Below are positions 15,577 to 51,551 of a stretch of DNA of 64,000 nt, in pieces (the first letter of the stretch is position 1; each line of letters opens with the position of its first letter). The position numbers were made by a program, and so were the translations under genes. Where the stretch lies: NCBI RefSeq assembly GCF_012516395.1, contig NZ_CP051206.1, positions 4,407,334 through 4,471,333 of the forward strand. The letters run 5' to 3'. The notes under the pieces are model-generated. The model was not told the origin of the DNA and searched no databases. It saw nothing but the letters and a program-made list of their open reading frames with translations. Origin of the DNA: Dolichospermum flos-aquae CCAP 1403/13F. GTDB lineage: Bacteria > Cyanobacteriota > Cyanobacteriia > Cyanobacteriales > Nostocaceae.

Positions 15577-15834
15577 GTGTCAACCAAAATTCGCAAGCAG
15601 ATTTATATCCAACCACGTCAAGAACATCTACTCAAAGAGATTGCACAACAAACAGGTATAAGTGAAGCCGAGATTATCCGTCAAGCCATTGACCTTCATC
15701 TTGGTGAAATCACTGTCCCCCAAACCGATATCTCACTGTGGGAAGCCGAAAGAGAATTTATTGCACAAATCAAAACTCGACCTGTTCAAGCTGGAGGTAG
15801 AGACTGGAAGCGGGAAGACCTTTATGAACGGTAG
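15577..15834 (+). CDS. Ribbon-helix-helix antitoxin (VapB-type)
   Basis: An 85-residue protein starting at GTG. KIRKQIYIQPRQEHLLKEIA followed by GISEAEIIRQAIDLH is a ribbon-helix-helix DNA-binding domain. The C-terminal part (WEAEREFIAQIKTR) would wrap the toxin. The stop overlaps the start of the PIN-domain gene by 11 bp, the usual vapBC arrangement, and autoregulation by the complex is expected from the family. Confidence 0.8.
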   Translation: MSTKIRKQIYIQPRQEHLLKEIAQQTGISEAEIIRQAIDLHLGEITVPQTDISLWEAEREFIAQIKTRPVQAGGRDWKREDLYER

Positions 15835-16255
15835 AGTTTTTATTGATACTAATATTCTAGTGTACATCTACGATCCATTAGATACCACAAAACAGGAACA
15901 AGCGATCGCAGTTGTTGATAGGTTAATTCGTTCGGGGAAAGCAGTAATTAGTACCCAGGTGATAGGGGAGTTTTTTATGGCTACAACCCGCACTAGACGC
16001 TCGCTTTTAACTCCTGCTGAGGCATTGGTGCGAATGCGTAACTACTTAGCTATTTGCCATATTGTTGATATGACAAAATTAATCTCCCTAGAAGCGATTC
16101 GTGGACTAGAAACCCATAACTTTAGTTTTTGGGACGCGCAAATTTGGGCAACAGCAAGACTCAATCAAATTGAAGAAATTTACAGTGAAGATTTTCCATC
16201 AGGTGCAACTGTTGAGGGTGTAAAGTTTACAAATCCTTTTAAACTGAGTCAGTAA
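15824..16255 (+). CDS. vapC: PIN-domain ribonuclease toxin (VapC)
   Basis: A 143-residue PIN-domain RNase. Acidic residues are visible in VFIDTNILVYIYD, in GEF near residue 46 and in FSFWDAQIWATA. I use the ATG at 15824 inside the antitoxin end; an upstream extension in the same frame lacks PIN homology. The final residues (KLSQ) and the stop TAA at 16253-16255 fall on the first bases of the omega RNA (starting GTCAGTAA at 16248), so the IscB element appears to have inserted at the very end of this gene and to supply its stop codon. Confidence 0.85.
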   Translation: MNGRVFIDTNILVYIYDPLDTTKQEQAIAVVDRLIRSGKAVISTQVIGEFFMATTRTRRSLLTPAEALVRMRNYLAICHIVDMTKLISLEAIRGLETHNFSFWDAQIWATARLNQIEEIYSEDFPSGATVEGVKFTNPFKLSQ

Positions 16256-16484
16256 CTCAGGGCTAAAGCCACTGAGCTTGTAAGAAATTGCAAGCTGTAC
16301 TGACCAGACCACCCTGAGCGTAGTCGAAGGGTAGCCGTTATTTGAGTCACGACACCTCGGAATGCGTTGCTAGTTCCCCGCTCTGTCGCTGTAAGCTAAA
16401 CAGTTTTAAAGTCACTGAAACAGTGCTTACAGCCTAACAAGCTCTTATAACAGGTCGAAGCTAACATTACCCAGAAATGGAGGG
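16248..16484 (+). ncRNA. Omega RNA (HEARO RNA) of the IscB element
   Basis: About 237 nt between vapC and iscB fold into clear helices. An outer stem GTCAGTA (16248-16254) pairs with TACTGAC (16298-16304). It encloses CTCAG/CTGAG capped by GGC-taaa-GCC (16261-16270), and GCTTGT/GCAAGC. A 9-bp stem joins GCTGTAAGC (16388-16396) to GCTTACAGC (16425-16433), with a CACTG-aaa-CAGTG hairpin inside. A final small CCA-gaaa-TGG hairpin ends at the iscB ribosome-binding site. A second copy at 49279-49515 supports these helices by compensatory changes. IscB omega RNAs, first described as HEARO RNAs, lie upstream of iscB and carry the guide at their 5' end. The guide here would be the ~16 nt before 16248, which is the vapC 3' end. 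Confidence 0.85.
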
Positions 16485-16488
16485 ACTT

Positions 16489-17772
16489 ATGTCCAAAACA
16501 TTAGTATTAGACACAAACAAAAGACCATTAGATCCAATTCATCCAGCGCAAGCTAGACAACTATTAAGAAACAAAAAAGCAGCCGTATTCAGACAATTCC
16601 CATTCACAATTATCCTCAAAGAATCACGTCCAGATTCACCAGTATCACCTCTAAGATTAAAGATTGACCCTGGTGCAAAATTCACAGGAATGGCATTAGT
16701 TAACGACTCGACTGGAGAGGTTGTATTTGCAGCCGAATTAAAGCATAGAGGTTTTGTAATTCGAGATGCTTTAACTTCTAGACGACAACTAAGACGTTCT
16801 AGACGTGCCAGGAAAACCCGTTATAGACAACCAAGATTCTTGAATAGAACCCGTCCAAATGGATGGTTAGCACCAAGTTTACAAAGTCGAGTTGAGAACA
16901 TCAAAACTTGGGTTAAGAAGTTACGGAAATTCGCACCAATTGAAGCTATTAGTCAAGAATTGGTACGGTTTGATATGCAGTTAATGGCTAATCCTGATAT
17001 TCAAGGTAAGGAGTATCAGCAAGGTACTCTTGCTGGTTACGAAACTAAAGAATACTTACTAGAAAAGTGGAATAGACAATGTGCCTACTGTGGAGTGAAA
17101 GACGTTCCCTTCCAAGTAGAACACATTCATCCTCGTGCAAAAGGAGGTAGTAATTCAATTACAAATCTGACATTGAGTTGCGAGAAATGTAATACCAAAA
17201 AAGGAACTAAGGATATTAAAGACTTCCTCAAAAAAGACCCAACAAGATTACAGAAAATCTTGAAACAAGCTAAACGTCCTTTGGCTGATGCAGCCGCAGT
17301 AAACGCGACTAGATGGGCATTATTTAGAGTTTTGAAAGATACAGGACTACCAGTAGAAACAGGTTCAGGAGGTTTAACAAAGTTTAATCGTAGTCAACAA
17401 AATCTAGCAAAAACTCACTGGATTAATGCGGCTTGTGTTGGTCAATCAACCCCAATTCTAACCATCAAGGGGATTAAACCATTGTTGATTGCTGCTAATG
17501 GTCACGGTTCTAGACAATCTTGTAGAACAGACAAGTTTGGTTTTCCTTCTAGATACGTTCCACGGTTTAAGTTTGTTAAAGGTTTTCAAACTGGCGACAT
17601 TGTAAAAGCAGTAGTAACAGCGGGCAAGAAAGTAGGTGAATATTTTGGGAGAGTTGCTATTAGAACTAGTGGAACTTTTAATATCTCGACCAATAGCGGA
17701 TTAGTTCAAGGAATTAGTCACAAATATTGTTTAGCAACTCATAAAAAGGATGGATATAGTTATGCCAATTAA
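16489..17772 (+). CDS. iscB: IscB RNA-guided nuclease (RRXRR/RuvC-HNH)
   Basis: A 427-residue IscB, the transposon-encoded relative of Cas9. In order: an N-terminal PLMP-type domain (LDTNKRPLDPIHPAQARQLL), RuvC-I KIDPGAKFTG (Asp60), the Arg-rich bridge helix RRQLRRSRRARKTRY, RuvC-II AISQELVRFD (Glu157), HNH domain CAYCG...FQVEHIHPRAKGG...CEKC (His212), then RuvC-III KTHWINAACVG and a C-terminal target-recognition part. The expected RuvC-III Asp is Asn313 here (codon AAT at 17425-17427). I chose the ATG at 16489, preceded by GGAGGG at 16478-16483. The ATG at 16477 lies inside the omega RNA terminal hairpin. No transposase gene is present, so the element would need one in trans. Confidence 0.9.
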   Translation: MSKTLVLDTNKRPLDPIHPAQARQLLRNKKAAVFRQFPFTIILKESRPDSPVSPLRLKIDPGAKFTGMALVNDSTGEVVFAAELKHRGFVIRDALTSRRQLRRSRRARKTRYRQPRFLNRTRPNGWLAPSLQSRVENIKTWVKKLRKFAPIEAISQELVRFDMQLMANPDIQGKEYQQGTLAGYETKEYLLEKWNRQCAYCGVKDVPFQVEHIHPRAKGGSNSITNLTLSCEKCNTKKGTKDIKDFLKKDPTRLQKILKQAKRPLADAAAVNATRWALFRVLKDTGLPVETGSGGLTKFNRSQQNLAKTHWINAACVGQSTPILTIKGIKPLLIAANGHGSRQSCRTDKFGFPSRYVPRFKFVKGFQTGDIVKAVVTAGKKVGEYFGRVAIRTSGTFNISTNSGLVQGISHKYCLATHKKDGYSYAN

Positions 17773-17905
17773 AAAGACCACGGCGATTAAAATCGCTCGT
17801 GTCGCTTCCCTCTCAGGTCTAAAGACGCGCTCGTTTCCCACTTACCGCGAGGTCTTATGATTAATTATCGAAAGTCCAAGTTTACCAGAACAACATTGAT
17901 TTTTC
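17773..17905. mobile_element. Probable right end of the IscB element
   Basis: After the iscB stop there is a non-coding stretch with short inverted segments such as GCGATTAAAATCGC and GAGGTCTTATGA, a layout compatible with the hairpin-bearing right end of an IS200/IS605-like element. The exact boundary cannot be placed without an empty-site comparison. Confidence 0.35.
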
Positions 17906-33025: not shown

Positions 33026-33169
33026 AAAGCCCAGGCGAATAGAATTCGCGGCTACACAGGCGAAGTCCGCCTGCGCGGACTAATTATGGAATAACGAACC
33101 ACAGAGGCACAGAGTTCACAGAGAAATGAGTGTTTAAGGGATATTTTCCATGATTGTTGTAAATCTTCT

Positions 33170-49012: not shown

Positions 49013-49278
49013 ATAATTGACAATTACCAAGCCCCTTATTACGGAGTAAGGGGTATCATTTTTAATTTTTAATTCTTAATTTTTAATTCCCGACAGGGTT
49101 TGACGGCAAATACGACTATAAAGTTACGGTTCACCCCAATTCCTGAAAGTATTAATTACCATACATTAGTCAATGTGAAAGCACATAAATCCATGAACCC
49201 ACTAGACATAATTTATAAAATTCACCGTTCCCTTAACGGTTCGGTAAACCACCCTTCATGGAATACCACTGAGTTTAT
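49013..49278. other. Spacer before the orphan omega RNA
   Basis: It starts with a likely hairpin, CAAGCCCCTTATTACGGAGT-AAGGGGT (about 49029-49055), then TTTTTAAT heptamers (49060-49090), then unassigned sequence. The last ~16 nt before 49279 would be the guide of the RNA that follows. Confidence 0.45.
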
Positions 49279-49515
49279 GTCAGTAACCCAGCCCTAAAGG
49301 GACTGAGCTTGCAAAAGTAATCAAGCAAGCTGTACTGACCAGTCTAAGTCTTCACTGACTACGTTTTTTGAGTCACGACACCGGGCGAATGCGTAGCTAG
49401 TTCCCTGCTCTGTCGCTTGTGATTAAACAGTTTCAAGGTCACTGAAACAGTGTTGCAAGCCTAACAAGCTCTTAAAACATTGACGAAGCTAACATTACCC
49501 CAGAAATGGGAGGCT
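49279..49515 (+). ncRNA. Orphan omega RNA (HEARO RNA) with no iscB
   Basis: This ~237-nt stretch matches the omega RNA at 16248-16484 along its length: outer stem GTCAGTA (49279-49285) with TACTGAC (49333-49339), shared blocks TTTGAGTCACGACACC, GCTAGTTCCC, CACTGAAACAGTG, CCTAACAAGCTCTTA and CGAAGCTAACATTACCC. Differences preserve pairing: the GGC/GCC hairpin stem becomes CCC/GGG, and the 9-bp stem becomes GCTTGTGAT/GTTGCAAGC. No iscB follows; only a 15-codon frame (49533-49580) lies before dnaK, whose start is 129 bp beyond the RNA end. It could be a trans-acting guide RNA or the trace of a deleted element. Confidence 0.82.
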
Positions 49516-49643
49516 CTTCGGAGCAATACGTTATGCGTACAGAGTTGGGAAATTTGAATCGGTTTGTTATTGACATTTAGTTAATGCAATTTTATATTCT
49601 CTCTGAGTTCATTTAGTAATTTTATACGGAGCAAACACCCAAA

Positions 49644-51551
49644 ATGGCAAAGGTAGTTGGAATTGATTTAGGTACGACAAACTCCTGCGTGGCAGTAATG
49701 GAAGGTGGTAAACCCACCGTTATCGCTAATGCAGAAGGTTTTCGGACAACACCCTCAGTAGTTGCGTTTGCCAAAAATGGCGACAATTTAGTTGGTCAAA
49801 TCGCTAAACGCCAAGCGGTAATGAACCCCGAAAATACTTTTTATTCTGTAAAACGCTTTATCGGTCGTCGTTTTGAAGAGATTACCAATGAAGCTACAGA
49901 AGTTTCTTATAAAGTTCTCAGTAGCGGCGGTAACGTTAAAGTAGATTCTCCCGGTGCTGGTAAACAATTTGCACCTGAAGAAATTTCTGCGAAGGTTCTT
50001 CGCAAATTAGTGGAAGATGCTAGTAAATACCTGGGTGAAACCGTTACCCAAGCTGTAATTACCGTTCCTGCTTACTTCAACGACTCCCAACGTCAAGCCA
50101 CAAAAGACGCGGGAAAAATCGCTGGTATTGACGTTCTCCGCATTATCAACGAACCTACCGCTGCTTCCTTAGCTTATGGTTTTGATAAAAAGAGCAATGA
50201 AACTATCCTCGTATTTGACTTGGGTGGTGGTACTTTCGACGTATCTGTTCTGGAAGTAGGTGATGGTGTATTTGAAGTATTATCAACATCTGGGGATACT
50301 CACCTGGGTGGTGACGACTTTGATAAAAAAATCGTTGATTTCTTGGCGGAAAAGTTCAAAAAAGACGAAGGGATTGACCTGCGTAAAGACAAACAAGCTT
50401 TACAACGTCTGACTGAAGCCGCTGAAAAAGCCAAAATTGAACTTTCTAGCGTTAGCCAGGCAGAAATTAACCTGCCATTTATTACCGCTACCCAGGACGG
50501 ACCAAAGCATTTAGATACAACTCTGACTCGCGCCACTTTTGAAGAACTCTGTTCTGATTTAATTGACCGTTGCCGCATTCCTGTGGAAGATGCGCTCAAA
50601 GGTGCGAAGTTAAATAAGACCAATATTGACGAAGTTGTTCTCGTTGGTGGTTCTACTCGGATTCCCGCTGTTCAAGATGTGGTTAAACGGGTGTTAGGTA
50701 AAGAACCTAACCAAACTGTTAACCCTGATGAAGTGGTAGCTGTTGGTGCTGCTATTCAAGCGGGTGTTTTAGCTGGTGATGTTACAGGTATCTTGTTGTT
50801 AGACGTAACACCATTATCCTTGGGTGTAGAAACCTTGGGTGGGGTAATGACTAAGATTATTCCTCGCAACACTACAATTCCTACCAAAAAATCAGAAGTG
50901 TTCTCTACTGCGGTGGACGGACAAGGTAATGTGGAAATTCACGTTCTCCAAGGTGAGAGAGAATTTGCCAATGATAATAAGAGTTTAGGAACTTTCCGTT
51001 TGGATGGTATTCCTCCTGCTCCCCGTGGTGTTCCCCAAATTGAAGTGACTTTTGATATTGACGCTAACGGTATTCTCAACGTTGCGGCTAAGGATAAGGG
51101 AACTGGTAAGGAACAATCTATTAGTATCACTGGTGCTTCTACTCTGGATAAGAATGATGTAGAACGCATGGTGAGAGAAGCTGAACAAAACGCTTCTTCT
51201 GATAAGGAACGTCGTGAGAAAATTGAACGCAAAAACCAAGCTGATTCTTTAGCTTATCAAGCTGAAAAGCAGTTGGAAGAGTTGGGTGATAAAGTCCCCG
51301 CTGCTGATAAGACTAAGGTTGAAGGTTTGGTCAAGGAAGTAAAAGAAGCAGTTGCGAAAGAAGATGATGCTCAAATCCAGAAGTTAATGCCAGAACTGCA
51401 ACAAGCTCTGTTTGCTATTGGTAGCAATATCTATCAACAAGCTGGTGATGCTGCTGGCGCTGCTGGTGCTGAACCTCATGCTGGTGGTTCTACTCCTCCT
51501 TCTGGCAGTGGTGATGATGTCATTGATGCTGATTTCACTGAAAGCAAGTAG
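49644..51551 (+). CDS. dnaK: Chaperone protein DnaK
   Basis: A 635-residue Hsp70: [20 protein letters not shown], the ATPase motif [36 protein letters not shown], the linker/substrate domain [20 protein letters not shown], and an acidic C-terminus ending [12 protein letters not shown]. Its upstream region contains the orphan omega RNA on the same strand; a shared transcript is possible. Cyanobacteria hold several dnaK genes; this length and tail fit the DnaK2 group, which I note without assigning. Confidence 0.95.

Follow-up and report, generated by a model that had tools for sequence, protein, structure and literature searches.

A role in guarding transposons against loss is ascribed to omega (HEARO) RNAs. 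The founding papers are Weinberg 2009, Altae-Tran 2021 and Meers 2023, and HEARO elements reportedly insert 5' of ATGA or GTGA, a statement that probably goes back to the first of these; a literature search found no paper on such insertion. That omega RNAs occur on their own and can act in trans with IscB is already known; PMC9581776 reports that a stand-alone omega RNA is able to act with IscB. The same paper gives NTG as the motif of one IsrB protein from Dolichospermum, and TTGA and ATGA as motifs at which DtIsrB cuts. For OgeuIscB, PMC9640706 gives NNRR as the target-adjacent motif and describes cutting as still possible with mismatches at guide positions 15-16 and as abolished by mismatches at positions 1-14. 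PMC9755519 likewise deals with HEARO nucleases. For TnpB, a homing model has been proposed (PMC8612924), and a gene drive has been reported in plasmids (PMC11870625, a preprint).

The window analysed here is a stretch of 64,000 nucleotides from Dolichospermum flos-aquae CCAP 1403/13F, the genome of which is referred to as G000. A sequence-only reading of this stretch had described an omega RNA upstream of dnaK without a nuclease gene of its own, and a second one beside iscB, and both descriptions hold. The orphan matches RF02033 over the whole model (1-211 of 211) with 160 bits and an E-value of 6.1e-34, against a gathering score of 83, and the second RNA, also a full-length match, is found on the same strand next to iscB (Table 1). 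The element remnant reaches about 49562, past the end of the extent proposed for the orphan, 49279..49515. The iscB element itself was inserted at ATGA at the extreme end of a PIN-domain gene (window 15662-16255), the frame of which now stops inside the element; its empty site in G010 reads ...ttttaaaatga followed by ATGATTAATTATG. Both G000 and G010 have an intact iscB frame; in G007 only fragments of it are seen, some of them at contig edges. The window also holds a single match to the Rfam CRISPR-DR28 repeat at 33059-33082 (36.8 bits, cut-off 35).

Table 1. Features of the dnaK and iscB loci, in window coordinates.
Feature	Position	Strand	Basis or remark
Presumed 16-nt guide, host DNA directly 5' of the element	49263..49278	+	Left half of the insertion site
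Scaffold of the orphan omega (HEARO) RNA	49279..49498	+	Rfam RF02033, 160 bits
Remnant of the element's 3' region, without the right-end hairpin of full copies	49499..49562	+	Comparison with full copies L001, L002, L005
dnaK upstream region after the deletion, promoter-like TTGACA-17-TATATT at 49570-49598	49563..49643	+	Alignment, promoter scan
dnaK (HSP70)	49644..51551	+	PF00012, 882 bits
Omega RNA of the iscB element	16248..16470	+	RF02033, 137.6 bits
iscB, 431 aa, candidate nuclease acting in trans	16477..17772	+	PF14239 RRXRR, PF01844 HNH
Right end of the iscB element, with ATGA directly after it at 17857-17860	17773..17856	+	Sequence

The changes claimed between the two omega RNAs of the window proved exact. 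In a comparison by eye, the 9-bp stem GCTGTAAGC/GCTTACAGC of the iscB copy becomes GCTTGTGAT/GTTGCAAGC in the orphan, with four positions differing on both strands, two on one, and pairing kept throughout; in the 5' hairpin, GGC/GCC becomes CCC/GGG. When the Rfam structure (66 pairs) was imposed on 44 non-redundant HEARO copies from the genus, two-sided changes were found in 18 of the 66 pairs, compared with a mean of 8.9 in shuffles (none of 500 as high) and 2-7 in slid controls. Paired cells made up 85.0% across the 44 copies and 82.1% in the shuffles. The 9-bp stem (helix 9) carries two-sided changes at seven of its nine pairs, with 98% of cells paired; helices 5 and 8 are weaker (48% and 73% of cells), and six of the 66 pairs are non-standard in the orphan itself. 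A separate count of this stem, covering only 53 of the 136 elements described below, gave 16 distinct stems, in which 141 of 144 positions were paired, against a mean of 125.4 and a maximum of 138 in shuffles. The secondary structure is upheld by compensatory change at the level of the HEARO family. The structural constraint that had been ascribed to the orphan is borne out for the family; the covariation is a property of that family, of which the window holds two diverged members, and is no proof of selection on the dnaK locus after insertion. A palindromic insert of about 25 nt (TTCGCGC...GTGCCG...GGCAT) occupies one or the other of two omega RNA loops, depending on the copy; it is seen in the alignment in L061:3743-3987 and other HEARO copies, and it is present in the dnaK orphan of G010 and absent from that of G000.

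Orphans of this kind are not rare. The genome (5.22 Mb) contains 20 HEARO matches, 16 of them above the cut-off, and in three of the 20 the flanks, fetched to 1.5 kb, include an iscB-like frame (another such frame is found at G000:C1:422844), so that orphans are the rule in this genome, and the view that the dnaK copy is one of few is not supported. Nor is there support for the view that the position upstream of dnaK is special in itself, since the same elements insert 5' of ATGA, often at start codons, at many places. Among species of the genus, the number of HEARO matches per genome (E 0.001 or better, weak ones included) ranges from 1 to 70.

The ends of these copies were compared in 136 elements with a strict left end, taken from 142 regions and 20 own loci; the genus total is 232 matches in 16 genomes (20 own + 43 + 169), and those unfetched or without the strict left end lie outside the comparison. 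The copies have a common left end, GTCAGTAACYCAG, and complete copies finish in a right-end hairpin ending CTTACC...CTT, followed by ATGA. A loose right-end motif, defined by a pattern without ATGA, is present in 75 of the 136 copies and is followed by ATGA in 72, by ATAA in two and by TAAC in one (the last probably a false match), compared with a background of 2.5% for ATGA after TCTT in the same sequences. A stricter count (76 of 76 with ATGA) is uninformative, because its pattern itself contained ATGA and the result is circular. An open frame of at least 60 codons starts at the right-end ATGA in 35 of the 76 strict-end copies, compared with 14.8% of 2965 background ATGA; five of the 35 reach the end of the stretch without a stop. 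Three empty sites, at dnaK, at iscB (in G010) and at the start codon ATGAAAGTCCTGG, show clean insertion before ATGA with no target duplication. The HEARO copies belong to the IS200/IS605 type of element, and the ATGA before which they lie is often a start codon.

Transposase for these elements may come from a tnpA-bearing element at G000:C1 ~3616.3-3618.2 kb (L366). This element encodes a Y1 transposase (127 bits to PF01797) and has a candidate tnpB frame of 456 aa. Its left hairpin, CTCAGCCCTAAAGGGACTGAG, and its right end in front of ATGA are also those of HEARO/IscB elements, and because both ends are common to them, a single transposase may act on elements that carry two different RNA-guided nucleases.

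The copy upstream of dnaK has the same left end as the intact copies (GTCAGTAACCCAG...), and differs from them on the right. Complete type-A copies continue to the right end, whereas this copy stops at GAATCGG (49562), and neither the right-end hairpin nor the ATGA that should follow it is present. The empty alleles read ccactgagtttat followed by ATGATAT, which places the insertion point between TAT and ATGATAT, without target duplication; in the filled allele the ATGA itself is deleted, together with the right end and about 53 bp of the right flank (in G015, the two matched pieces of the empty allele lie 53 bp apart). The resulting junction, GAATCGG joined to TTTGTTATT, is common to G000, G010 and G007. 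Because the right end is missing, this copy should not transpose or be a substrate of TnpA. Folding of the empty dnaK upstream region, carried out with no shuffle control, gave no convincing conserved RNA fold.

The 16 nt that precede the orphan, and would serve as its guide, had been taken to be aimed at a different target; they are the left half of the element's own insertion site. In the filled allele the guide sequence is followed by GTCA, and the target is interrupted. Of the 13 element-free genomes, eight have ATGA at the site after the guide match, four have TTTCTATTTC instead (G002, G004, G005, G008), and G003 is diverged. The guide matches the empty site at 15 of 16 positions in G015, G009 and G011, with the mismatch at position 16 and ATGA following, at 14 in G001, G006 and G014, at 13 in G012 and at 12 of the 15 compared in G013; at the eight ATGA-bearing sites the guide mismatches number 0-4. 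The insertion sites point to ATGA as the putative target-adjacent motif of IscB, whereas that of OgeuIscB is NNRR.

The truncated element, with its one junction, is present in three of the 16 genomes of the genus. A scan for the exact left-junction pattern in genome contigs of 84,980 species returned two records, Anabaena sp. CRKS33 (a metagenome-assembled genome, equal to G007) and Anabaena sp. UHCC 0187 (a record without a MAG label, equal to G010), in a search in which records near the own genome may be omitted. On none of four trees (ilvB, dnaK, left-flank and concatenated) do G000, G010 and G007 form a clade. G007 lies inside the otherwise empty clade G006/G014/G011/G001, with support of 1.0 on the ilvB and dnaK trees. 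G010 is sister to the empty G015 (0.976 on ilvB, 0.68 on dnaK, 0.997 concatenated). The placement of G000 conflicts, with the empty G002/4/5/8 on ilvB (0.991) and with G010 and G015 on dnaK (0.98), which indicates that recombination is common in the genus and could have moved this piece without a nuclease. Poor alignment gives G011 and G008 long branches on the left-flank and concatenated trees, and little weight is placed on these two trees. A repeat-protein gene tried as a species marker was useless.

The empty alleles are ancestral, as they keep the ATGA and the 53 bp missing from the filled ones, and independent insertions at dnaK are rejected because one deletion junction is common to all three carriers. 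With three filled genomes that form no clade, vertical descent alone is rejected as well, provided that the G007 assembly is correct; G000 and G010, taken by themselves, could on the dnaK tree go back to a single gain with a later replacement in G015. G000 and G007 differ at four of 284 element positions and by 8-16% in dnaK, in the NAGPA gene and in the left intergenic stretch. Under the latter rates, this identity of the element has P below 1e-6; the 64-bp remnant taken separately gives P of 0.001 to 0.09. Part of the high identity could come from constraint on the RNA.

In G007, the diagnostic sites up to 49199 and those from 49636 onward agree with its own empty clade, with two exceptions further right (49757, neither clade, and 49772, the other clade), so that the foreign patch lies within 49200-49635 and is shorter than 440 bp. 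Foreign flank is found on the right side only, at 49567 and as a missing 35-column stretch at 49589, because the interval from 49199 to the element contains no diagnostic site; the right flank of the filled allele fits neither clade fully. In the guide region, G000 and G010 have a 4-nt deletion that is absent from G007.

The RNA's identity, the insertion between TAT and ATGA, the truncation, the guide match followed by ATGA in empty alleles, the patchy presence in 3 of 16 genomes and the short patch in G007 are established by sequence. From them we infer transcription, loading of IscB, cleavage, and spread driven by cleavage. With a probability of about one half, the dnaK copy is the left part of a short non-autonomous element of the IscB type (IS200/IS605) that can no longer transpose and is kept, and perhaps spread, through the cutting of empty alleles by IscB. 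The element inserted 5' of ATGA upstream of dnaK, after which the right end was lost along with the ATGA and about 53 bp of flank. The omega RNA, which is intact, would be made, with the left flank of its own insertion site as the 5' guide, and would load an IscB encoded at another locus of the genome. Action in trans with the IscB at 16.5 kb, as the sequence-only reading proposed, or with a different IscB of the genome is plausible. The complex would cut empty-site alleles, in which the guide match is followed by ATGA, and would spare its own allele, because there the guide sequence precedes GTCA. Repair from the filled copy would then restore or install the element, along with a short piece of flank, by recombination, allowing retention and possible spread without a transposase.

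That the same broken piece is present in two other species, one of them distant, may thus reflect spread by means of a nuclease made elsewhere. A stronger form of this proposal, which can be put forward only tentatively, is that of a transposition-dead homing element consisting of RNA alone, an omega RNA of ~220 nt with a 16-nt guide, that would borrow IscB in trans, cleave the empty allele upstream of dnaK in cyanobacterial relatives and be copied across species by recombination. Under this RNA-only homing reading, G002, G004, G005 and G008, which have no ATGA at the site, would be immune. Arguments against homing are the status of G007 as a metagenome-assembled genome, in which no complete iscB is seen, the recombination evident among these genomes, possible constraint on the RNA, and the want of a second clear case.

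Homing as a general process in the genus was considered and rejected: among 135 of the 136 elements (one has a left flank of less than 60 nt) there are five groups with a common left flank, of which one is a tandem within G012, two are found in the close species G012 and G013, one joins G009 and G013, and the last is dnaK. The G009/G013 site, the start codon ATGAAAGTCCTGG, is filled in these two genomes and empty in 13, with no proper match in G003, and as a second homing case it is no clear repeat of the dnaK signature. The HEARO elements at exactly this start codon (L168/L245) have omega RNAs that are only 92.1% identical, so that the site may have been hit twice; the 70 bases after the omega RNA are identical (70/70).

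Several other explanations must be weighed. The truncated element may be without function and have been moved between species by ordinary homologous recombination, which is a real possibility, if one short of even odds: the right end is lost, the flanking trees conflict in a way that indicates frequent recombination at the locus, and the near identity of the element could simply reflect recent transfer. A functionless piece of DNA is less readily reconciled with a scaffold that scores far above the HEARO cut-off in all three genomes (160, 158.7 and 141.3 bits; in aligned positions it is 99.1% identical in G007 and 98.6% in G010, the latter with a 25-nt insert), with a G007 patch that is short and includes the target site of the guide, or with the persistence of target and ATGA in the eight empty genomes. 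The case of G007 could also be an artefact, its copy being an assembly mosaic of two strains and the true carriers being G000 and G010, by descent or one transfer. With ~1110 contigs, and a flank beside the element that has few or no differences between the clades, the assembler could have switched strains in short identical stretches. This is unlikely, as the G007 element differs from both others and its guide region lacks their 4-nt deletion, so that the source of the mosaic would have to be an unsampled third filled strain; in addition, G010 still pairs with the empty G015.

The remaining two alternatives concern what the RNA does. An insertion kept for expression of the heat-shock gene, with the RNA as a leader or regulator and not a guide, would account for the proximity to dnaK and for the promoter-like TTGACA-17-TATATT (11/12) just past the junction, and the empty G015 and G009 have TTAGC where the filled alleles have TTGAC. 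The latter is, however, also present in empty alleles of the other clade, one promoter-like site corresponds to the chance expectation (1.2), and copies of the same element are found upstream of many different genes, making a host function improbable. The proposal that the orphan guides IscB to a different target, be it phage, plasmid or chromosome, draws on the ability of stand-alone omega RNAs to act with IscB in trans (PMC9581776, in the available portion, citing earlier work), and partial matches can be found: 17 nt (15 of the guide and AT) in E. coli phage records, among the best five of eight matches (E ~4), and 18 nt in one Halopseudomonas plasmid (E ~3). Both matches are at chance level and lack the full ATGA. 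The own genome contains no perfect guide target with ATGA; the closest is the own site, with two mismatches, the other 16 sites have three, and the total of 17 compares with 21 in a reversed-pattern control. Viral contigs gave 0 exact matches to the 18-nt target, and 80% of the 34-nt empty site was covered by no plasmid record and by no phage record among the best five of eight matches. The one match found with the full ATGA is the empty allele in relatives; as no better target came up in the own genome, the viral contigs, the plasmids or the best five of eight phage matches, a different target is the least credible explanation, and of the sequence-only reading the observation stands, with its interpretation supported in part.

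If the homing proposal is true, a guide RNA of a mobile element can outlive its transposon, and homing function has been separated from transposition in a natural setting. The locus is a ready test system: it is small, its genome carries an intact nuclease gene, and relatives have both empty and apparently resistant alleles. Text searches of open-licence papers, worded somewhat differently, brought up no report of a truncated, homing omega RNA, nor of a truncated and presumably non-transposing one that is present in three genomes forming no clade.

Compared with described systems, the dnaK orphan resembles stand-alone omega RNAs in belonging to the same Rfam family, in having no adjoining nuclease gene and in having its 5' flank as guide. 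It differs from them in that empty alleles demonstrate the loss of its right end and ATGA, and yet it is found in three genomes that form no clade. It likewise has the left end of IscB-type IS200/IS605 elements and their non-autonomous derivatives; intact copies of these possess a common right end and lie 5' of ATGA without target duplication, whereas the dnaK copy has no right end. The closest parallel to the proposed behavior would be found in homing elements such as group I introns, and in the TnpB models, where the empty allele is cut by a nuclease and the element is copied in during repair. Unlike these, the dnaK case, in which cutting is proposed, would have its RNA and its nuclease at separate loci, the ~284-bp element carrying only the gene for the RNA.
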